Shown: positions 2,627 to 18,132 of the stretch, piece after piece
How positions within the stretch are numbered: position 1 is the first letter of the stretch
Layout: each line of letters opens with the position of its first letter
From: Rhodoplanes sp. Z2-YC6860
Lineage (GTDB): Bacteria > Pseudomonadota > Alphaproteobacteria > Rhizobiales > Xanthobacteraceae
NCBI RefSeq assembly: GCF_001579845.1
Contig: NZ_CP007440.1
Location: 4,982,029 to 5,046,028, forward strand
Direction of reading: 5' to 3'
DNA: 64,000 bases
Notes under the pieces: generated by a model
Seen by the model: the letters and a program-made list of their open reading frames with translations, nothing else
Databases searched by the model: none
Told to the model about the DNA's origin: nothing
Made by a program: the position numbers and the translations under genes

Positions 2627-2657
2627 GCGATTTGCGATCATTAAAAGCGCAAATCGC
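2627..2657. terminator. Perfect inverted repeat downstream of the Anbu gene
   Basis: The 10-base arms gcgatttgcg (2627-2636) and cgcaaatcgc (2648-2657) are exact inverse complements around an 11-base loop, followed by aactttt. It lies 62 bases after the Anbu stop and 80 before the preferred start of the next gene. A weak intrinsic terminator is the simplest reading; the short T run makes this uncertain, and an operator is possible. Confidence 0.4.
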
Positions 2658-2736
2658 AACTTTTGAGCGGTGCGCAAGCCATTTCGCAAGCATTCTGCCG
2701 CTAAGGTCCAATCTCGAGAATGGGTGGAGCGCCAGG

Positions 2737-5010
2737 GTGGCGGACGATAAAAATCCGCAAGCAGGCAGCGCAGGTCAGCGCGCCAACCTTTCCGGCTGGG
2801 ACCGGACGCGCCTTGGCGTATTGGCCCCGCTGGGTGTCGTCGTTGCCATCGCCATCGTCTGCATCGTGGTGGCGACGCTGTTGTCGGCGAACCGCGCCGA
2901 CGACGTGGCGCTGGACCGTGAACGCCAGCTCCTTGCTCGCGCCATCTCCACGCAGGGCAGTTGGAGCTTCGGGCGGCTGAAGGGCCTGATCGAATCCCCG
3001 GCATCCGTCAGCGCCGAGGACATCGAGCAGTCTCCCTCGCTGGTGCAGCAGCGGCTCGCCAACTGGCTGAGCGCGCTGTCGGACCACAATCTGGTCCTGG
3101 TGCTCAATTCCCAGAACGAAATCGCGTTCACGCAGCGCGGCCATGATCTGGATGACGGCAAGCTCAGCAAGGCGGTGTTCGCGCGGCTGCAGTCGCTCGC
3201 AGAGTCGATCCGCGGCCGCGAGCCGGACCTGCCGGCCGGCGTCAAACGCCTGCTCTGGCATCCGGACGGCGGCGTGCTCCTGCTGAACATCGACGGACAG
3301 TTGGCGGTTGCGGTCGCCATACCGGTCGGCAATCCCGGCGTTCCGGGGGACCAGATGTCCGGCCCGCCGCTCCTGATGGCGCTGCGGGTGATCACGCCGC
3401 GGACGCTCGATGGCATCAGCGCGAGGCTGCAGCTCAAAGACCTGACCATGGTCAAGAGCGGTGACAAGCCGGTCGACTACAACAGCTACGAATTCCTCGA
3501 CGATCAGAACCGGTCGGTGGCGCGCTTTTCCTGGATACCGCAGAAGCCCGGTGCGGAAATTCTGGAATCGGTGTTCCCGTTCATCGGCATCGCGCTGTCG
3601 GGTTTCGCGCTGCTCGCCGCCCTTGTGCTGCGCTATGTGCGCCACACCGCAGCGACCATTACGGCCGGCGAGAACCGGCTGCGCTATCTCGCGATGCACG
3701 ATGCGCTGAGCGGCCTGCCGAACCGCGCTTCGTTCACCGAGCGGCTCCAAACCGTCATTGCCGATGTGCGGCGCGGCGGCAAGACCGCCGCGGTGTTCTG
3801 CATCGACCTGGACCATTTCAAGGACGTCAACGACACGCTCGGCCACCCGGTCGGTGATGAACTGATCCGGCTCGTCACCATGCGGCTGTCGCACCTGATG
3901 CGCGGTGACGACATGGTGGCGCGCCTCGGCGGCGACGAGTTCGCCGTGATCACCGTTGCGGGCAGCGACCATACCATGCTCGATGGGATCGCGGCGCGGA
4001 TGATCAGCGCGCTGTGCGCCCCCTACGCGATCAGCGGCCACACCATCGTGATCGGCGCCAGCATCGGCATCGCCGTGATCGATGGCGGCGCCGCAACCGA
4101 TGGCGCTGACATCATGCGCTATGCCGACATGGCGCTCTACCGCGCCAAGAACGAGGGCCGCAATCGCGCCTGCATCTACGACCAGGCGATGGATGCCGAC
4201 CTGTCGCTGCGCAAGGCGATCGAGCAGGAGTTGCGCGAGACCATCGAGAGCGGCGGACTGAAGGTCGCCTACCAGCCGGTCTTCAACGCCGCCGGGGACA
4301 AAATCGTGGGCGTCGAGGCGCTGTCGCGCTGGACCCACCCGGTGCGCGGCGCGATGCCGCCAGACTTGTTTATCCCGATCGCCGAATATTCCGGCCTGAT
4401 CATCCCACTCGGCGAGTTCGTACTGCGCCAAGCCTGCATCGACGGCCTCGCCTGGCCGGGCATCACGGTGTCAGTCAACGTCTCGGCGCTGCAGTTCCGG
4501 CGGCTCGATTTCGTCGGCATGGTCGAGCGCACACTCGCCGAAACCGGCTTCGATCCGACGCGGCTCGAACTCGAGATCACCGAAAGCACGCTCCTCGGCA
4601 ATCTCGACAGCGCCGAGGGCGCGATGCGGCGGCTGAAGGCGCTCGGCGTCAAGCTGGCACTCGACGACTTCGGCACCGGATATTCCAGCCTGCTCTATCT
4701 GCGGCGATTCCCGTTCGACCGGCTCAAGATCGACCGAAGCTTCGTGCTCTCGATCGAAAAGGCTGCGGACGCAGCCGCAATCGTGCACGCCGTGGTGGGC
4801 CTTGGCCGCGGTCTTGGCATGAAGGTCACGGCCGAAGGCGTGGAGACCGCCGAGCAGCACCTGTTCCTGCGCGCCGCGGGCGTGCACTGCATGCAGGGGT
4901 ACCGCTTCGGACGGCCGATGGAGCGGGCCGAAATCTCGGCGCGGCTCATGGTGCCTGGCACCTATCGCACGATCGAGGGCGACGCCCGGGAAGCGGCGCT
5001 CGCGAGCTGA
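2737..5010 (+). CDS. Membrane-anchored GGDEF-EAL protein (c-di-GMP turnover)
   Basis: About 757 residues from the GTG at 2737. A transmembrane segment near residues 24-45 (LGVVVAIAIVCIVVATLL) and a second near 275-300 (FPFIGIALSGFALLAALVLR) bracket a periplasmic sensor region. Then follow a GGDEF domain (GGDEF at 398-402, with an intact inhibitory RxxD site, RGDD) and an EAL domain (EAL at 527-529, with LDDFGTGYSS, LKIDRSF and AEGVET). All EAL metal and catalytic residues I could check are present, so both cyclase and phosphodiesterase activity are possible. An in-frame ATG at 2632 would add 35 residues, but it overlaps the hairpin at 2627-2657 and has no coding character, so GTG is preferred. 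Confidence 0.85.
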   Translation: MADDKNPQAGSAGQRANLSGWDRTRLGVLAPLGVVVAIAIVCIVVATLLSANRADDVALDRERQLLARAISTQGSWSFGRLKGLIESPASVSAEDIEQSPSLVQQRLANWLSALSDHNLVLVLNSQNEIAFTQRGHDLDDGKLSKAVFARLQSLAESIRGREPDLPAGVKRLLWHPDGGVLLLNIDGQLAVAVAIPVGNPGVPGDQMSGPPLLMALRVITPRTLDGISARLQLKDLTMVKSGDKPVDYNSYEFLDDQNRSVARFSWIPQKPGAEILESVFPFIGIALSGFALLAALVLRYVRHTAATITAGENRLRYLAMHDALSGLPNRASFTERLQTVIADVRRGGKTAAVFCIDLDHFKDVNDTLGHPVGDELIRLVTMRLSHLMRGDDMVARLGGDEFAVITVAGSDHTMLDGIAARMISALCAPYAISGHTIVIGASIGIAVIDGGAATDGADIMRYADMALYRAKNEGRNRACIYDQAMDADLSLRKAIEQELRETIESGGLKVAYQPVFNAAGDKIVGVEALSRWTHPVRGAMPPDLFIPIAEYSGLIIPLGEFVLRQACIDGLAWPGITVSVNVSALQFRRLDFVGMVERTLAETGFDPTRLELEITESTLLGNLDSAEGAMRRLKALGVKLALDDFGTGYSSLLYLRRFPFDRLKIDRSFVLSIEKAADAAAIVHAVVGLGRGLGMKVTAEGVETAEQHLFLRAAGVHCMQGYRFGRPMERAEISARLMVPGTYRTIEGDAREAALAS

Positions 5011-5900: not shown

Positions 5901-8402
5901 TTACGCCACCGAACGTGCCAGCGGCCGATCCGACAGCATATGGGCCAGCTCGTTCGCGGGCTTGGGCTTGCTGAACAGGTAGCCCTGCATCTCGGTGCAG
6001 CCGAGCGCGCGCAGAAGCTCGAGCTGATCCTTGGTCTCAACGCCCTCGGCGGTCGTGGCGATATCGCGTGACTTGGCGATGCTGATGACGGCCTGCACGA
6101 TCGCAAGCGAGCTCGCGTCGCTTGCAATGTGCTCGATGAACGAGCGGTCGATCTTGACCTTGTCGAAGGGGAAACGCCGCAGATAGTTCAGGGACGAGTA
6201 GCCGGTGCCGAAATCGTCCATCGAGATCCGTACGCCAAGCTTCTTGAGCTGGTGCAGCACGCGCATCGTCGTCTCGTTGTCGTGCAGCAGCACCGATTCC
6301 GTGATCTCGAGCTCAAGACGTCGCGGCGGCAGGCCCGACTCCGACAGCGCATCCATCACGAGCTGCACCAGGCTGTCGTTCTTGAACTGCACCGACGAGA
6401 CATTGACGGTGACGATGATGTCGTCACGCCACTGCGCCGCGTCCATGCAAGCCGTCCGCAGCGCCCATTCGCCGAGCTGATTGACGATGCCCGCGTCCTC
6501 GGCCACCGGAATGAACTCGGACGGCGGCACCATCCCGCGCGTGGGGTGACGCCAGCGCATCAGCGCCTCGCAACCCGCGATCCTCTTGTCGCGAATGTTG
6601 ACCAGCGGCTGGTAGTGCAGCTCGAACTCGCCGCACATGATGGCCTGACGCAGGTCGAATTCGAGCGCGCGGCGCGCCTTCATGGCGGCGTCCATGTTCG
6701 GTTCGAAGAAGCGGTAGGTGGCGCGGCCGTCCGCCTTGGCACCGTACATCGCCAGGTCGGCGTTTTTCAGGAGCTGATCGGCCTCGGTGCCATCCTGCGG
6801 CGCCATGGCGATGCCGATGCTCGCGTCCATCGAAAACCGGTTGCCCTCGAGCTCGCAAAATTGCCGCAACACGCCGTGGATGCGCTCGGCAAGATCAATG
6901 ACCGCAGTGGCATCCGGCACATCGGTTTGCACGATGGCAAATTCGTCGCCGCCAAGCCGTGAGACGATGTCAGTTTCCCGGACGCAGCTTCGCAGCCGCC
7001 CGGCCACGGTCTTGAGCAGTTCATCGCCGCCTTGATGACCGAGCGTGTCGTTGACCTCCTTGAACTTGTCGAGGTCGAGGAACAGCAGGGCAAGCTTCTC
7101 GCCGCGCTTGACCCGTCTGAGCGCCTGATCGAGTTGTTCGCGAAAAAACACCCTGTTGGGCAGGCCCGTCAGTGCGTCGTAATGGGCGAGCCGCGCGATA
7201 CGCTCCTCCGACTGCTTGCGGGCCGTGACATCCTCGATCACGCCAATCACGAATTGCGGCTCGTCGGCGCTGTCCCGTACGATCAGCTTTTTCACTGCAA
7301 TGACGCGCCCAACGCCGCCAGGCGTCTCGATCGCGTAGTCCTTGAACGACATGCTGCCGCCGGAGCGGAGCAGTTCAGCGTCGTGCTGCTCGATGATGTC
7401 TGCGTGTGCCTTGTTAAAGACCTCGTGGGCGGTCTTACCCACGATCCCTTCGCGAGGGATGCCGAAATGCTCCACCGCCGCCTGGTTGACCAGGACGTAA
7501 CGCCGGGTGCGAACGTCCTTCACGACGATGGTGGTTGGAACGTTGTCGACGATCTGGTTGAGAAACATGCGGTCGCGGCCGAGTTCCTGCTCAAGCCGCA
7601 CCAGCTCGGTGACATTCTCGATGACGCTGACCAAGTAGCGCGGCTTGCCGTCGGCGTCGCGCACCGCATGACGCCTGGTGGTGACCAGGTGACCGTCAAT
7701 CGGAGCGATGGCGCTGTTATGCACCTCAGGGGCGATGCCGACGCCGCTTGCGAGTGCTTCGACATCGAGGCGATCAATAGTATCCGTGCTTCGCCCCGGA
7801 AAGACCTCGTGAAGGGTTTTGCCGATCACCTCCGTCCGCGAGAAACCCCAGAACGTCTCGGCCGCGCGGTTGGCGTGCAAGAACTTCCGATCAATGGGGT
7901 CCTTGACCACCACCATCACCGGCACGTTGTCGAGCACCTCATTGAGAAATTGGCGCTGCCGCTCGCGCTCTGCTTCGAACGCTTTCAGCTCGGTCATGTC
8001 CTCGATCGTCGCCACCCAGCCGCCGCCTGAAACCGGCCGGTTGGTCACGCGCAACGCGCGGCCATCGCAGGACTCGACCGTATGTGTCATCGCATTGCCG
8101 GCCGCGACATAGCTGCGAACCTTGGCGAAGATTTCGTCAGGGTCATGGTCGAACCTGCCGGCGGTCTTACGCAGGCGGAACAGATCGGGCAGCGACATGC
8201 CGAGAAGATCGCGCGCCGGCAGCGCCATGAGTTCGATGTAGCGCTTGTTGAATGCAGCGATCCGGCCACCGGCGTCGAACATGCACACGCCGTGCTGCAC
8301 GCCATCGAGCGTGGCTTGAAGCAAGGAAACCCGGGCAGCATCGACACTGCCGCTGAATCGCTGCGGCTCCTGCCGTCTTGCGAAGTCGTTCTCGCCGCTC
8401 AT
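5901..8402 (-). CDS. PAS-PAS-PAS-GGDEF-EAL protein (c-di-GMP turnover)
   Basis: A protein of 833 residues with no membrane segment. Three PAS-type sensor domains lie at about 27-140, 150-270 and 280-400; the second and third share the phrase LDNVPVMVVVKDP / VDNVPTTIVVKDV, a repeated PAS unit. GGDEF is at 484-488 with the inhibitory RETD site intact, and EAL at 612-614 with DDFGTGYSSLNYLRRFPFDK and AEGVET conserved. It is a cytosolic sensor with potential for both synthesis and breakdown of c-di-GMP. The ATG at 8402 has GGGGAGC immediately upstream. It converges on the SDR gene and is in the opposite direction to the membrane-bound GGDEF-EAL gene. Confidence 0.9.
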   Translation of the reverse strand: MSGENDFARRQEPQRFSGSVDAARVSLLQATLDGVQHGVCMFDAGGRIAAFNKRYIELMALPARDLLGMSLPDLFRLRKTAGRFDHDPDEIFAKVRSYVAAGNAMTHTVESCDGRALRVTNRPVSGGGWVATIEDMTELKAFEAERERQRQFLNEVLDNVPVMVVVKDPIDRKFLHANRAAETFWGFSRTEVIGKTLHEVFPGRSTDTIDRLDVEALASGVGIAPEVHNSAIAPIDGHLVTTRRHAVRDADGKPRYLVSVIENVTELVRLEQELGRDRMFLNQIVDNVPTTIVVKDVRTRRYVLVNQAAVEHFGIPREGIVGKTAHEVFNKAHADIIEQHDAELLRSGGSMSFKDYAIETPGGVGRVIAVKKLIVRDSADEPQFVIGVIEDVTARKQSEERIARLAHYDALTGLPNRVFFREQLDQALRRVKRGEKLALLFLDLDKFKEVNDTLGHQGGDELLKTVAGRLRSCVRETDIVSRLGGDEFAIVQTDVPDATAVIDLAERIHGVLRQFCELEGNRFSMDASIGIAMAPQDGTEADQLLKNADLAMYGAKADGRATYRFFEPNMDAAMKARRALEFDLRQAIMCGEFELHYQPLVNIRDKRIAGCEALMRWRHPTRGMVPPSEFIPVAEDAGIVNQLGEWALRTACMDAAQWRDDIIVTVNVSSVQFKNDSLVQLVMDALSESGLPPRRLELEITESVLLHDNETTMRVLHQLKKLGVRISMDDFGTGYSSLNYLRRFPFDKVKIDRSFIEHIASDASSLAIVQAVISIAKSRDIATTAEGVETKDQLELLRALGCTEMQGYLFSKPKPANELAHMLSDRPLARSVA

Positions 8403-12063: not shown

Positions 12064-13230
12064 TCAATCGATCGGCAGGCCTGCATAGTTCTCCGCAAGC
12101 GAAGTCATGGCTGCGTCCGAGCCGGTGACGTAGTCGATCTCGGCGATCTGGCGCTTGGTGTCGAAGTCCATCTCGGTGCTGTGACGGTGGAGGAGCTGCG
12201 TCATCCACCACGAGAAGCGCTGGCCCTTCCACACGCGGCTCAAGCACGTCGCCGAATAGTTTGTGAGCAGGTCCTCGCGGCCGGACTTGTAATGCGCGGC
12301 AATCGCGCGCGACAACACCCGCACATCGGCCATCGCCAGATTCATGCCTTTCGCGCCGGTGGGCGGCACGATATGCGCCGCGTCACCCGCCAGGAACAGC
12401 CGGCCCGACTGCATCGGCTCGGTGACGTAGCTCCGCATCGGCGTGATGCCCTTTTGCAGAATCTTGCCACGCGGCAGCGGCCGCACACCGCCGAGCCGTG
12501 TCTCAAGCTCATCCCAGATGCGCTGATCCGACCATTTGTCGATGTCTTCGTCGGGCGCGCATTGCAGGTAGAGCCGCGACACATCGGGTCCGCGCATCGA
12601 GAACAGCGCGAAGCCGCGCTCGTTGAAGCAGTAGATCAGCTCTTTATCGGGCGGCGGCGAATCCGTGAGGATGCCGAGCCAGCCGAACGGATAGACCCGG
12701 TCGTAGCCCTTGAGCTGGTCCGTCGGAATGCTCGGCCTGCAGACGCCGTGGAAGCCATCGCAGCCGCCGATGAAGTCGCACTCGATCTCGTGCTGCTTGC
12801 CGTCGTGCTTGAAGCGAATTTTCGGATGGCGGCCGTCGAAGTCGTGGACGCTCGTGTCCGACACCTCGAAGTAGATTTGCCCGCCGTCGGCGAGCCGCTT
12901 GCCGATGAGGTCGGTCACGACCTCCTTCTGATCGTAGATGAAGACATGCTTGCCGATCAGCCGGCTGAAATCGATGTGCCGCGCCTCGCCGCGGAACGAG
13001 ATGTAGATGCCGTCGTGCACCATCGCTTCGCGCTGGAGGCGTTCGCCCACGCCGGTCTCGATCAGCATGCGCGAGACCCAGTTCTCCATCAGCCCGGCGC
13101 GCACGCGCGCCTCGCAATAGGCTCGGCTGCGGTCCTCGATGATGATGCTCGAGATGCCGGCCAGGTGCAGCAGATGCGACAGCATCAAGCCTGCCGGCCC
13201 GGCGCCGACAATGCCGACTTGGGTTCGCAT
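12064..13230 (-). CDS. pobA: 4-hydroxybenzoate 3-monooxygenase
   Basis: A protein of 388 residues, close to the typical PobA length of about 390-394. It hydroxylates 4-hydroxybenzoate to protocatechuate with FAD and NAD(P)H. The FAD-binding GxGxxG is QVGIVGAGPAGLMLSHLLHL; the characteristic RSRAYCEARVRAGLMENW and the conserved DG motif IGGCDGFHGVCR are present, as is the second FAD motif LFLAGDAAHIVPPTGAKGMN. A strong GGGAGGA precedes the ATG. No PobR regulator or protocatechuate ring-cleavage gene is adjacent, so the rest of the beta-ketoadipate route must lie elsewhere. It is divergent from the heme-propeller gene pair, 210 bases apart. Confidence 0.92.
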   Translation of the reverse strand: MRTQVGIVGAGPAGLMLSHLLHLAGISSIIIEDRSRAYCEARVRAGLMENWVSRMLIETGVGERLQREAMVHDGIYISFRGEARHIDFSRLIGKHVFIYDQKEVVTDLIGKRLADGGQIYFEVSDTSVHDFDGRHPKIRFKHDGKQHEIECDFIGGCDGFHGVCRPSIPTDQLKGYDRVYPFGWLGILTDSPPPDKELIYCFNERGFALFSMRGPDVSRLYLQCAPDEDIDKWSDQRIWDELETRLGGVRPLPRGKILQKGITPMRSYVTEPMQSGRLFLAGDAAHIVPPTGAKGMNLAMADVRVLSRAIAAHYKSGREDLLTNYSATCLSRVWKGQRFSWWMTQLLHRHSTEMDFDTKRQIAEIDYVTGSDAAMTSLAENYAGLPID

Positions 13231-13440: not shown

Positions 13441-15096
13441 ATGCGACGCATGCCGCTGTTCGCGGGCTTTAGCTTGCTTGCCACCATTCTGCTTTCGACG
13501 ACTGCGCTAGCGCAAAACGCCGCGCTCTCCGGCAATGTCTCCTCTGACGAAGAAGGCGCGATGGAAGGCGTTCTGGTGAGCGCCAAGAAGAGCGGCTCCA
13601 ACATCACGGTCACGGTCGTCACCGACCGCGCCGGTCACTTCAGCTTCCCGGCGGGTCGGATCGAACCCGGCGAATACGGGCTGCGCATCCGCGCGATCGG
13701 CTACGACCTCGATACGCCAAAGACCATCCAGGTTGCGGCGCAGGGTACGACGCAGAACCTCAAGCTCCGCAAGACCGAAGACCTCGCGTCGCAGATGTCC
13801 AACGCCGAATGGATCAACAGCATCTCCGGCAACGATCCGCGCAAGGGCATCCTGCTCAATTGCGTCGGCTGCCACACCGTGGAGCGCATCTTCCGCTCCA
13901 AGCACGATGCCGAGGAATTCCTCGAGATCACGCTGCCGCGGATGCAGAGCTACGTGAACCAGAGCATCCCGCAGCACTTCCAGGTCCGCCGCGCCGAACG
14001 GATGATGGAGGAGCGCGGCGATTCCCGCGTGCAGGTCTACAAGACCACCGCCGAGTATCTCGCCAGCATCAATCTCAGCTCGCGTCCGCAGTGGAATTTC
14101 CAGCTCGAACCGATGCCGCGGCCGGGCGGCCGCGCGACGCACGTGATCTACACCGAATACGATCTGCCGCGCGACACCATCGAGCCGCACGACGTGATCG
14201 TCGATAAGGACGGCTTCGCCTGGTACTCGAATTTCGGCGAGCAGAACCTCGGCAAGGTCGATCCCAAGACCGGCAAGGTCACCGAATATCAGGTGCCCGA
14301 GCACAAGCCGGGATTCCCGACCGGCTTCCTCGCGCTGCGCACCGATCGTGACGGCGATCTGTGGCTCGGCAACATGTACCAGGCCACGATCACCAAGTTC
14401 GATCGGAAGACCGAGAAGTTCTCCTATTGGCAGTTGCCGAAGGAGCAGAACGTCGATGCGGCGCAGCTCAACATGGTGAGCCCGCAAAGCTCCCACGTCG
14501 ACGGCAAGGTCTGGGCGCAGAACAACGGCTTCGCCGGTGTGCACCGTCTCGATGTTGCCAGCGGCAAGATCGAGACCTGGGAGCCGTTCAAGGGCGCCAA
14601 GGAACCGCACAACATCTATGACGTGATCCCCGACTCCAAGAACAATGTCTACTTCACCGACTTCCGGCTGCGCCACATCGGCCGGATCGATGCCAAGACC
14701 GGCGAGTTCAAGCTGTTCGAGGTGCCGACCGCGGCATCGGCGCCGCGCCGCGGCCAGATGGACTCGCAGGACCGGCTGTGGTTTGCGCAGTATCGCGGCG
14801 ACCGGGTCGCGATGTTCGACACCAAGACCGAGGAGTTCAAGGAGTGGCGCATCCCGCCACGCTGGTCGGCGCCCTACGACGCCGTCCTCGACAAGAACGA
14901 CGAGGTCTGGACCGGCTCGATGCTGACCGACCAGGTCACGCGGCTCAACACCAAGACCAACGAGATGGTGCAGTATTTGCTGCCCCGCTCCACCAACATC
15001 CGCCGCGTGTTCGTCGACAACACAACCACGCCGGTGACGTTCTGGGTCGGCTCCAACCACGGCGCCTCCATCGTAAAAGTCGAACCGCTCGATTAG
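13441..15096 (+). CDS. Secreted CarboxypepD-reg / c-heme / Vgb-propeller protein (copy 1)
   Basis: A protein of 551 residues. A Sec signal peptide (about 1-25, ending TTALAQ) is followed by an Ig-like carboxypeptidase-regulatory-type domain (about 28-110; VLVSAKKSGSNITVTVVTD, then GRIEPGEYGLRIRAIGY). Next is a short domain with one c-type heme motif, CVGCH at 141-145, ending in AEYLASINL like the last helix of a monoheme cytochrome. From about 230 on there are seven repeats of the type D-xx-G-xxW-x(10)-DxKTGKxxEYxxP, as in the seven-bladed propeller of streptogramin lyase Vgb. Periplasmic, redox-active by prediction. The substrate is unknown. The next gene, 19 bases downstream, is a paralogue. 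I would not call it an antibiotic lyase. Confidence 0.8.
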   Translation: MRRMPLFAGFSLLATILLSTTALAQNAALSGNVSSDEEGAMEGVLVSAKKSGSNITVTVVTDRAGHFSFPAGRIEPGEYGLRIRAIGYDLDTPKTIQVAAQGTTQNLKLRKTEDLASQMSNAEWINSISGNDPRKGILLNCVGCHTVERIFRSKHDAEEFLEITLPRMQSYVNQSIPQHFQVRRAERMMEERGDSRVQVYKTTAEYLASINLSSRPQWNFQLEPMPRPGGRATHVIYTEYDLPRDTIEPHDVIVDKDGFAWYSNFGEQNLGKVDPKTGKVTEYQVPEHKPGFPTGFLALRTDRDGDLWLGNMYQATITKFDRKTEKFSYWQLPKEQNVDAAQLNMVSPQSSHVDGKVWAQNNGFAGVHRLDVASGKIETWEPFKGAKEPHNIYDVIPDSKNNVYFTDFRLRHIGRIDAKTGEFKLFEVPTAASAPRRGQMDSQDRLWFAQYRGDRVAMFDTKTEEFKEWRIPPRWSAPYDAVLDKNDEVWTGSMLTDQVTRLNTKTNEMVQYLLPRSTNIRRVFVDNTTTPVTFWVGSNHGASIVKVEPLD

Positions 15097-15115
15097 ACAT
15101 CGTCAGGAGGCGATC

Positions 15116-16753
15116 ATGGCGACCAAGCATCTTGCGCTGATCGCGGGCGCGCTGGCGCTTGCCGTTTCAACCGGAACGGCCCGTGCCGAAGGGCTCGCGG
15201 GCACAGTGTCGTCGGCCCAGGAAGGCCTGATGGAAGGCGTTGTGGTCAGCGCGAAGAAAGTCGGCTCGACCATCACGACAAGCGTTGCGACCGACGACAA
15301 AGGCCGCTTCAGCTTCCCGGCCGGGCGACTCGAGCCCGGCCAGTATGCGCTCAGCATCCGCGCCATCGGCTACGACCTCGAAGGCCCGCGCAGCGCTGAC
15401 GTCGCGACCGGCAAGACCGAGAGCGTCGAGATCAAGCTTGCGCCGACCAGGAATCTTGCCAAGCAGATGTCGAACGCCGAGTGGCTCGCGAGCTTTCCCG
15501 GCACCGACAACGAGAAGAAAGCACTGCTCAACTGCGTGAGCTGTCACGATCTCGATCGCATCGTGCGCTCGCAATATGACGGCGAGCAGTTCGTCGACAT
15601 CTTCAACCGCATGGTCGGCTACTATCCGGGCAGCACGCCGCAGCACCCGCAGCGTCTCGTCGGCAACGCCCAGCGCACGCTCGGCCAAGGCCCGAACATG
15701 CGGACGGTGGCGGAATATCTCGCCTCGGTGAATCTCAGCAAGGAGACCTGGAGCTATCCGCTGAAGACGCTGCCGCGGCTCACCGGGCGCTCCAACCGCT
15801 TCATCATCACCGAATACGCCCTGCCCCGTCCGCTCATACAACCGCATGATGTGATCCTCGACGAGCAAGGCACCGTCTGGTTCACGCATTTCGCCGAGCA
15901 GTTCCTCGGCAGGATGGACCCGAAGACCGGCAAGGTTTCGGAGTATCCGATTCCGGTGCTGAAGCCCGGCTATCCGACCGGCACGCTCGATCTCGGTATC
16001 GACAAGGCCGGCAATCTCTGGATCGGCATGATGTACCAGGGCGGCGTCGCGCGCTTCGACAAGAAGACCGAGACGTTCAAGACCTGGTCGATCCCGAAGG
16101 AATGGCAGGCCGATGCCACGCAGTCCGGCCATCTCGAACCGGCCTTCACGCACGTCGACGGCAAGGTCTGGGTCAAGAACTCCGACGGCTCGCAGATCCT
16201 GCGGCTCGATGTCGAGAGCGGCCAGTGGGAAAATGTCGGCTCGTTCAGTGCGGGCGGCAAGCGCATGGGCGTCTACGGCATCCGCGCCGACAGCCGGAAC
16301 AATCTCTATCTGCTCGACTTCCAATCGTCGGCGATAGGCATCATTGATGCCAAGACCGGCAAATTTACCGCCTATAGCGGCGAGATCGCGAACTCGCGGC
16401 CGCGTCGCGGCGCGGTCGATGAGCAAGACCGGCTCTGGTACGCCGAATATGCCGGCAATGCGATCGGCATGTTCGATCCCAAGACCAAAGCGATCAAGGA
16501 ATGGGTCGTGCCGACGCCCTGGGCGCAGCCCTATGACGTCGTCACCGACAAGAACGGCGAGGCCTGGACCGGCTCGATGATGAGCGACCGCGTGTCGCGG
16601 CTCGATCCGAAGACCGGGCAATATGTCGAGTATCAGTTGCCCAAAACCACGAACATCCGCCGCGTGTTCGTCGACAACTCGACCACGCCGGTGACGTTCT
16701 GGACCGGCTCCAACCACGGTGCAGCGATCATCAAGCTCGAACCGCTGGATTGA
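15116..16753 (+). CDS. Secreted CarboxypepD-reg / c-heme / Vgb-propeller protein (copy 2)
   Basis: Tandem paralogue of the gene just upstream, 545 residues, with the same order of parts: signal peptide (about 1-24, ending GTARAE), regulatory-like beta domain with GRLEPGQYALSIRAIGYDLE, heme motif CVSCH at 140-144, and seven propeller repeats (for example KTGKVSEYPIPVLKPGYPTG). The closing segment TNIRRVFVDNSTTPVTFW is nearly the same in both copies, whereas the stretch after the heme motif differs most. This suggests a duplication followed by divergence in the heme region, perhaps giving a heterodimer or two substrates. A GGAGG site precedes the ATG, and an intrinsic terminator follows the stop. 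Confidence 0.8.
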   Translation: MATKHLALIAGALALAVSTGTARAEGLAGTVSSAQEGLMEGVVVSAKKVGSTITTSVATDDKGRFSFPAGRLEPGQYALSIRAIGYDLEGPRSADVATGKTESVEIKLAPTRNLAKQMSNAEWLASFPGTDNEKKALLNCVSCHDLDRIVRSQYDGEQFVDIFNRMVGYYPGSTPQHPQRLVGNAQRTLGQGPNMRTVAEYLASVNLSKETWSYPLKTLPRLTGRSNRFIITEYALPRPLIQPHDVILDEQGTVWFTHFAEQFLGRMDPKTGKVSEYPIPVLKPGYPTGTLDLGIDKAGNLWIGMMYQGGVARFDKKTETFKTWSIPKEWQADATQSGHLEPAFTHVDGKVWVKNSDGSQILRLDVESGQWENVGSFSAGGKRMGVYGIRADSRNNLYLLDFQSSAIGIIDAKTGKFTAYSGEIANSRPRRGAVDEQDRLWYAEYAGNAIGMFDPKTKAIKEWVVPTPWAQPYDVVTDKNGEAWTGSMMSDRVSRLDPKTGQYVEYQLPKTTNIRRVFVDNSTTPVTFWTGSNHGAAIIKLEPLD

Positions 16754-16777: not shown

Positions 16778-16811
16778 CTCAAGCCCCGCATTGCGGGGCT
16801 TGAGCGTTTTT
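16778..16811. terminator. Bidirectional intrinsic terminator
   Basis: Perfect 12-base arms ctcaagccccgc (16778-16789) and gcggggcttgag (16793-16804) enclose a three-base loop. On the + strand it is followed by gcgttttt; on the - strand the seven A at 16771-16777 give a T run. It serves both the heme-propeller pair from the left and the Bug receptor gene from the right. Confidence 0.9.
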
Positions 16812-16827
16812 AAGAGTACGACGAAGC

Positions 16828-17814
16828 TCAGTTCTCGAACTTCAAGTTCGCCGCCTTGATCACCTCGGAGATCATCTTGATGTCGCTGTCGATCATGGCG
16901 CTGAATTCCGAGCCCGGCTGACCGCCCGGCGTCACCGCCATGCCCTTGAGCTTCGAACTGACATCAGGATCGGTCACAGCCTTGCGCAATGCCGCTTCGA
17001 GCTTGGCGACGATCTCCGGCGGCGTGCCCTTCGAAACGAAGTAGCCGCTGAACAGCTTGATGTTGACCTCGGGAAAGCCCGCTTCCTTCATGCTCGGCAC
17101 GTCGGGCACCTCCTCCGATCGAACGGAGTCGGTGACGGCGAGCGCGCGGACCTTCCCGGCCTTGATCTGCGGAATGGCCGGCGGCCCGTCGGAGATCGCA
17201 AACAGCGTCTGCCCCTGGATGACGCTCAGGATCATCTCGTTGCTGCTCTTGTAGGGGATCATCTGCCCCGGCATGCCGCTCTTGAGTTTCAAAAGCTCGC
17301 TCGCGGTGGTGAAGGCCGGCGAGGTCGAAGCATAGTTCGCCTTGTCGGGATGCTGCTTCGCCCACTCGACCAATTCCTTGACGTTCTTCGCCGGATGGTC
17401 GGGCGGCACCACGAGGATCAATGGAAAGTTCGCGATCATCGTCAGCGGGATGAAGGTTTTCGTCGGATGGTATGACAGGTTCGGATAGGCCGCGGCCGCG
17501 ATCGACATCACGCCGCTCGCGCCGATGAACAGCGTGTAGCCATCATGGGGCTGGTTCATGACGTATTCGGCGGCGATGCGGCCGCCTGCGCCCGGCTTGT
17601 TCTCGTTGATCACCGGCTGGCCGAGAATTTCGGAAACCTTGTTACCGACCAGCCGCGCGAAGATGTCGTTTCCGCCGCCTGCCGCGAACGGCACGATCAC
17701 CCGGACCGGCTTGTTTGGAAAACCCGCTGCTGCGTCCTGGGCCTGCGCCCCCGCAACCGTGGCCGCAATCGCGACCATCGCGCCAACCAGCGCGCCGCCC
17801 AGTCTGCCCATCAT
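16828..17814 (-). CDS. Bug-family (TctC) solute receptor
   Basis: About 328 residues from the ATG at 17814 (a second ATG follows at 17811), with GGGAGGAAGC upstream. A Sec signal peptide runs through VAIAATVAGAQAQ. The mature protein shows the family pattern: FPNKPVRVIVPFAAGGGNDI, ARLVGNKVSEILGQPVINEN, then PHDGYTLFIGASG and the hinge SFSG-like ending KLFSGYFVSKGTPPEIV. Bug receptors bind carboxylates, amino acids or aromatic acids in the periplasm. The membrane components TctA and TctB are not nearby, so it is an orphan receptor. Position opposite the heme-propeller genes, sharing their terminator, does not imply a common role. Confidence 0.88.
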   Translation of the reverse strand: MMGRLGGALVGAMVAIAATVAGAQAQDAAAGFPNKPVRVIVPFAAGGGNDIFARLVGNKVSEILGQPVINENKPGAGGRIAAEYVMNQPHDGYTLFIGASGVMSIAAAAYPNLSYHPTKTFIPLTMIANFPLILVVPPDHPAKNVKELVEWAKQHPDKANYASTSPAFTTASELLKLKSGMPGQMIPYKSSNEMILSVIQGQTLFAISDGPPAIPQIKAGKVRALAVTDSVRSEEVPDVPSMKEAGFPEVNIKLFSGYFVSKGTPPEIVAKLEAALRKAVTDPDVSSKLKGMAVTPGGQPGSEFSAMIDSDIKMISEVIKAANLKFEN

Positions 17815-18132
17815 CGCTTCCTCCCGTACGAGCTCGTTGATCACGTCTTTGGCCCCACCGGGGCGCGGCCAAAGTAGCGAAATTTGCATCAAAGTCGATT
17901 GTCGGCTGCCCGCATGGCGGGCAATGCGCCCACATGACGCTCCAATGACGGGAAAACGCCAAAAAACGCAGATATTATTTTAACTTAAGGACCGTCCCAT
18001 CATTGACTTTCACGGTTTGGTCCCTATGTTCCGGCGCAACGGTACGAATGGAAGATTCGACCGCCGCTCCCGCGCACTACCGTATTCATCGTATATCCGG
18101 CGCGGCTCCGGGCGGTCCTTGATTGAGGCTTC
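17815..18132. other. Divergent intergenic region between Bug receptor and RhlE-like gene
   Basis: This 318-base gap carries the leaders of both flanking genes. It includes a patch richer in A and T than its surroundings at about 17950-18000 and a promoter-like pair at 18003-18030. I see no open reading frame with a ribosome-binding site and no strong hairpin. Confidence 0.6.
18003..18030 (+). promoter_or_regulatory. Predicted promoter of the RhlE-like helicase gene
   Basis: TTGACT at 18003-18008 and TATGTT at 18025-18030 are 16 bases apart, about 100 bases before the helicase ATG. A leader of that length is common for cold-shock-type RNA helicases, but no test of regulation is possible from sequence. 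Confidence 0.4.

Follow-up and report, generated by a model that had tools for sequence, protein, structure and literature searches.

The virginiamycin B or streptogramin B lyases (Vgb; Pfam PF24684; structures 2z2n, 2z2p and 2qc5) are seven-bladed propellers with the ligand site in the propeller; their known role is that of antibiotic lyases, and a few natural-product enzymes have similar propellers. A Vgb chain has about 300 residues in a single domain, without heme, and the catalytic His270 (named as such in the PDB title of 2z2p) has metal-binding Glu partners. Two other described systems bring a c-type heme and a propeller together: quinohemoprotein amine dehydrogenase contains a c-heme, beta-sandwich domains and a seven-bladed propeller, with several subunits, two hemes and a quinone cofactor, and cytochrome cd1 nitrite reductase has an eight-bladed propeller with heme d1. 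In the available part of a study of CylK, a substrate analogue and Mg are described as bound in Vgb close to polar side chains that blades 6 and 7 contribute, and CylK itself as a Vgb-like propeller to which an N-terminal domain is added, the active site lying between the domains at the propeller top face (PMC8916777). Here we describe two tandem genes of Rhodoplanes sp. Z2-YC6860, located in a 64,000-nucleotide stretch of its genome (a single contig of 8,193,889 bases, NZ_CP007440.1; positions 4,982,029 to 5,046,028 of the forward strand, hereafter the window), whose products each combine a signal peptide, a CarboxypepD_reg domain, a c-heme segment and a Vgb-type propeller. The architecture, conservation, clades and gene order of this heme-propeller pair were observed directly; its family is real, conserved and uncharacterised, and the pair stands out by a novel combination built on a known fold, without being a new kind. 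No description of the CarboxypepD_reg, c-heme and Vgb architecture was found in the open-licence literature with the terms that we used. If this conserved group ties the Vgb fold to a c-type heme, the fold would extend into respiration or redox sensing, a function would be given to proteins that now carry domain names only, and the invariant pocket would make the search for a ligand direct.

Gene 1 (13441..15096, + strand, 551 aa, clade A) and gene 2 (15116..16753, + strand, 545 aa, clade B) encode proteins of the same architecture that are 52% identical over 535 columns. Both start with a Sec-type signal peptide, as judged by eye. The CarboxypepD_reg beta-sandwich scores above the Pfam cut-off in each (PF13620), at residues 29-108 of the gene 1 protein (13525..13764, E 2.3e-11) and residues 27-108 of the gene 2 protein (15194..15439, E 2.1e-12). 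It is followed by a single heme attachment motif, CVGCH at residues 141-145 in gene 1 (13861..13875) and CVSCH at residues 140-144 in gene 2 (15533..15547), and by a seven-bladed propeller that spans residues 235-551 (14143..15093) and 229-545 (15800..16750), respectively. The Vgb_lyase model (PF24684) recognises both proteins with E-values of 2e-29 and 1.7e-27 (102.7 and 96.5 bits for a cut-off of 50). The genes are separated by a gap of 19 bp (15097..15115) in which a Shine-Dalgarno-like AGGAGG precedes the start of gene 2, and a terminator-like stem-loop of 12 pairs, readable on both strands, lies at 16778..16804, between gene 2 and a convergent gene (16828-17892). The latter appears by eye to encode a TTT-type binding protein and matched no NCBIfam family at E<=1e-5. 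The open reading frames (ORFs), Pfam and Foldseek thus confirm the initial annotation of the window, made from the letters alone, which had described this domain order, both CxxCH motifs at these residues, and a common operon and terminator.

Conservation was read in 84 distinct ORFs of the family, of which 78 are full length, in 78 distinct loci (the two counts of 78 coincide). The 78 full-length members were picked by similarity over more than 480 residues, a choice that favours heme-bearing members, and six of the 84 ORFs were excluded as not full length. Within the heme segment, C141, C144, H145, R149, R167 and M168 (gene 1 numbering) are invariant in all 78 proteins. CxxCH is present in 83 of the 84 distinct ORFs of the fetched loci; the sole ORF without it (L124, 6856-8049), one of the six that were excluded, is a broken copy from a draft genome in which the heme segment is lost and the frame disturbed, either by gene decay or by an assembly fault. 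No Pfam cytochrome c model matched either protein of the pair at E<=1. When the PDB was searched with a profile built on 25 heme segments, cytochrome c chains were recovered (3a9f, E 0.0036), and the RM dipeptide of the family falls opposite the RM of 3a9f in the profile alignment. CxxCH and a later Met, the features of a class I type cytochrome c, are present in 78/78, and we infer from these alignments that His145 and Met168 (13942..13944) are the axial heme ligands, Met168 being the proposed second one.

AlphaFold2 models were obtained from alignments of 38 (gene 1) and 27 (gene 2) sequences, with a mean predicted local distance difference test score of 88.3 and 86.1, respectively, and a predicted template modelling (TM) score of 0.87 for both. 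As the structure prediction proposed in the initial annotation, they give a seven-bladed Vgb fold: the top Foldseek match of both models is virginiamycin B lyase (2z2n), with a TM score of 0.89 by target length, root mean square deviations of 2.5 and 2.6 A and identities of 21 and 22%. Judging from the strand order, the N-terminal strand 235-241 of the gene 1 propeller probably closes the last blade. Two-component sensor propellers (4a2l and others) are among the next matches.

Nine propeller residues (H250, D251, D354, Y393, R436, R437, Y479, N519 and R521) are invariant in 78/78. Invariant residues other than Gly and Pro occupy 9 of the 24 inner-strand start positions and 10 of the 297 positions elsewhere in the propeller (p 9e-7), in a count that covers six of the seven blades, with the start of blade 6 set by hand and the windows chosen after the residues were seen. 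No excess was found at the starts of strands B, C or D or at the ends of the inner strands. We read the invariant residues as a putative ring round the propeller axis, in which H250, D251, Y393, R436, R437, Y479, N519 and R521 probably line a pocket whose position is estimated from the strand starts of the models. The initial annotation had considered a specific redox enzyme unlikely if the propeller pocket lacked conserved residues and most homologues lacked CxxCH; both the probable axis pocket and the heme motif are kept in all 78 distinct full-length relatives.

The pair has the fold of Vgb, and its ligand site would likewise lie in the propeller; the pocket residues differ. In neither alignment register do the catalytic residues of Vgb appear together, and one register stops short of His270. 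The shifted register aligns H250 with the His of the EPHGI motif of 2qc5, and the position of the adjacent Glu is E in only 27 of the 78 proteins. In the N-to-C register, Y479 is opposite the His of RPHAI and the His270 region lies outside the alignment, so that placing R521 opposite His270 is an extrapolation. The other described systems resemble the pair in part only. Quinohemoprotein amine dehydrogenase has the same kinds of parts but spread over subunits; none of its families matched in Pfam at E<=1, and it was not among the PDB matches of the heme profile at E<=10. CylK, in the available part of its description, shares a Vgb-like propeller with an added N-terminal domain, whereas CylK and BrtB differ from the pair by the calcium-binding nature of that domain and by their alkylation chemistry, and a heme is not mentioned there (PMC8916777). 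Cytochrome cd1 nitrite reductase, as far as the accessible part of the source describes it, also fuses a c-heme domain to a periplasmic propeller (PMC7278500). The Pfam family Cytochrom_D1 gave no match at E<=1 in the pair, whose fold is the seven-bladed Vgb one.

The family was detected in 26 of 198 genomes of the same taxonomic family (E<=1e-80) and in 1 of 398 genomes drawn from the phylum (E<=1e-60), this one being the genome of the window. The search of same-family genomes contributed 56 places, two partial ones being left out, and a genome collection gave 36 loci, several of them in records named Betaproteobacteria and Beijerinckiaceae. The genome of the window has four full-length members. 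The tree built from the 78 full-length proteins places gene 1 in a 34-member clade (support 100/100) and gene 2 in a 15-member one (100/97), 13 of whose members form clade B (84/45, a weak support). All six tandems that were found (the window, L001, L003, L014, L015 and L083), in three genera, consist of a clade A gene followed by a clade B gene, so the two-gene order that the initial annotation suggested to look for does exist in other genomes. Since the two genes sit in separate clades and the six tandems keep one order, the pair is old, and since these old paralogues stand in a fixed order, they probably act together. Clades A and B are cleanly separated by 15 columns, some in the heme segment (172-174, 183 and 190), which fits the divergence of the heme linkers noticed earlier between the two copies, and some near inner strands (360, 362, 394 and 406).

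A heme motif is found in other Vgb-type proteins, and the statement of the initial annotation that such propellers are without heme needs amending: the genome of the window encodes at least six Vgb-type proteins with CxxCH. One is a 613-aa sister with CarboxypepD_reg, heme and Vgb parts (4849636-4851474 of the genome, G000; L080:4634-6475, - strand); 10 bp upstream of it lies a small cytochrome c gene (L080:6485-6880, - strand) that matches Pfam cytochrome c models. Another, of 421 aa (6805933-6807195 of the same genome; L081:4934-6199), gives no CarboxypepD_reg match, and in a draw of 299 genomes from the phylum, seven have a relative of its type (E<=1e-50), the heme motif being absent from some of these relatives. 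Both proteins resemble the pair by a CxxCH segment before the Vgb propeller and by common PRR and PY motifs, and differ from it by their low identity (about 25-28% in BLASTP segments), the 613-aa type also by the adjoining cytochrome c gene and the 421-aa type by the missing CarboxypepD_reg match. In the sister family, a directly neighbouring gene of the same strand codes for a small CxxCH protein in 10 of 13 readable places (nine upstream, one downstream, none in three); these 13 places span nine genomes, eight of which have the CxxCH neighbour, and the count, to which three further places without 5' flank did not contribute, has no matched control. Because of this recurrent small cytochrome c gene, electron transfer is favoured.

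We tentatively propose, as the most probable reading but with somewhat less than even confidence, that the pair are exported monoheme redox proteins whose propeller would bind a small anion and which would exchange electrons with a soluble cytochrome c. The Vgb-type propeller would carry at its axis a small organic ligand, probably an anion, bound in the invariant Arg/His/Asp/Tyr pocket at the site that accommodates the ligand in Vgb enzymes. Attached through CxxCH and probably ligated by His145 and Met168, the c-heme would pass electrons between the bound ligand, directly or via an unseen metal or organic cofactor, and the soluble cytochrome c; the location of the pocket, the ligation, the anionic ligand, and the flow of electrons and its direction are deductions. 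The clade A and clade B proteins would probably act together, in two steps or as a complex. A bolder version, which we consider doubtful, is that each protein is one half of a periplasmic dehydrogenase for small organic anions, of a class so far undescribed, the Vgb propeller having turned into a heme-coupled oxidoreductase that works as an A/B heterodimer, or as a relay between two c-hemes, with soluble cytochrome c as acceptor.

Several observations weigh against a monoheme redox role. A heme with His/Met ligation does not catalyse by itself, and a second cofactor was not identified in the pair. Among five heme-less Vgb-like proteins that were read, four (L041, L185, L188 and L189) retain some of the pocket signature (such as PRR and PHD or PRD) and the fifth (L046) does not, while the PHD and PRR patterns find no match in the heme-bearing L186 and L187. 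The pocket and the heme are therefore separable, and the heme may be an add-on. The genes of three of these heme-less proteins lie at L041:1402-2355, L188:1492-2664 and L189:1408-2427, and the genes called in the 16-17 kb around each of the five include none with CxxCH. Gene neighbourhoods were compared between 78 family loci (658 kb of flank, some incomplete) and 80 background windows of 10 kb, a rough comparison with uncorrected p values, as the background came from two genomes (G000 and G056) and the family loci from many; the neighbours were labelled after 22 representative proteins, several of which had been named solely by eye. CxxCH neighbours are not enriched around the family of the window (7 of 78 loci versus 8 of 120 background windows), and no neighbour names a substrate at the 78 loci. 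What stands of the paralogous redox pair put forward in the initial annotation is thus the paralogy, the invariant heme site and pocket, and an old, ordered partnership; the redox role is borne out in part, by the invariant, likely axial Met and by the cytochrome c gene of the sister family, and is weakened by the heme-less relatives with pocket parts.

These relatives suit another reading, in which the pair would be non-redox Vgb-like lyases or lactonases, with a pocket that performs elimination or hydrolysis and a c-heme that is accessory (for stability, docking or regulation). The top structural match, virginiamycin B lyase at a TM score of 0.89, points the same way, as does the quite different, non-redox chemistry of the Vgb-like propeller enzyme CylK in the part of the source at hand (PMC8916777). 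The pair, however, scores far below the curated lyase models of NCBIfam (NF000022 and NF000096; 54.3-73.7 bits for a cut-off of 600), within the reach of the alignments the catalytic residues of Vgb are not conserved together, and the heme site is invariant in 78/78; we regard this reading as unlikely. A periplasmic redox or ligand sensor, or an assembly factor, in which the propeller would bind a ligand or partner and the heme would report or tune the redox state without turnover, is in our opinion quite unlikely. It would agree with the sensor propellers among the next Foldseek matches, with a Reg_prop match just below the Pfam cut-off in gene 1 (20.3 for 20.4 bits), with the finding of no stable pathway neighbours at the 78 family loci and with a cytochrome c reported, in the accessible part of the source, to stimulate calcium binding by PilY1 (PMC8833165). 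Beyond this weak Reg_prop match, however, Pfam reveals no signalling domain in the two proteins, and an invariant polar axis pocket is, in our judgement, more typical of enzymes.

Two further readings would specify the cofactor or the substrate, and both appear very improbable. The pair could be quinohemoproteins, with pyrroloquinoline quinone (PQQ) in the Arg-rich pocket and a heme that takes its electrons: an Arg/His/Asp pocket beside a c-heme resembles the logic of such enzymes, and pqqC is present in the host genome. Yet pqqC occurs in 18 of the 26 family-bearing genomes versus 124 of the 198 overall, so the family does not follow PQQ synthesis, although PQQ might also be taken up from outside, and pqqC was not found in G008 and G078, which are 99% complete and have three and five family copies; no PQQ family matched in Pfam at E<=1, and TIGR03606 (E 0.085 and 0.018) remained far below its cut-off. 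The initial annotation had instead pointed to an aromatic or polyol compound on account of the upstream pobA and ubiD genes, and the pair might accordingly belong to a dedicated 4-hydroxybenzoate pathway. The window does contain, as neighbours of the pair, a relative of 4-hydroxybenzoate 3-monooxygenase and a UbiD-family decarboxylase, and pobA lies beside the family in 4 of 78 loci versus 0 of 80 background windows (p 0.04, uncorrected). All four loci, however, belong to one genus, and pobA was not found within 5 kb at the other 74, some of which have incomplete flanks; ubiD is near 3 of 78 family loci and one background window, and of the four pobA loci it was found only at that of the window. 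In addition, the pair carries signal peptides, as judged by eye, whereas PobA and UbiD enzymes are cytoplasmic. The presence of pobA beside the pair is shared genus synteny, and the link to aromatic or polyol metabolism is not upheld. The pobA-like gene of the window (12064-13230), divergent to the pair, encodes a close relative of the monooxygenase and is the gene found beside the family in the four loci of the genus.

Among other neighbours, a link with TTT-type binding proteins was considered and rejected: they lie near 27 of the 78 family loci (18 of the 46 whose flanks are both complete) and in 28 of 80 background windows. These similar rates indicate no link and fit the 434 TTT binding proteins reported for Rhodoplanes sp. 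Z2-YC6860 in the available part of the source (PMC5994714). Taken alone, the unmerged TTT label gave 8 versus 2 (p 0.04), an excess that disappeared after merging with the label of L018. The latter protein (782 aa) is a read-through that joins a xanthine-dehydrogenase-like piece to a TTT-type binding protein, which is why its label drew most of the TTT matches. MmgE/PrpD neighbours were counted 7 times versus 2 in the background (p 0.08, uncorrected), and BKACE and MobA 3 times each versus 0 (p 0.09 each, uncorrected). At a single locus (L007:6184-7807), soxY, soxZ and a gene for a SoxA-type cytochrome lie directly upstream of a family member. Just upstream of another member are the genes of a 719-aa CxxCH protein with a CarboxypepD_reg match below the cut-off (L091:6437-8596) and of a 126-aa protein with a similar weak match (L091:9484-9864). 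Finally, the window encodes, at 2632-5010 and 5901-8402, two large proteins close together that resemble, by eye, signalling proteins of the GGDEF-EAL type.

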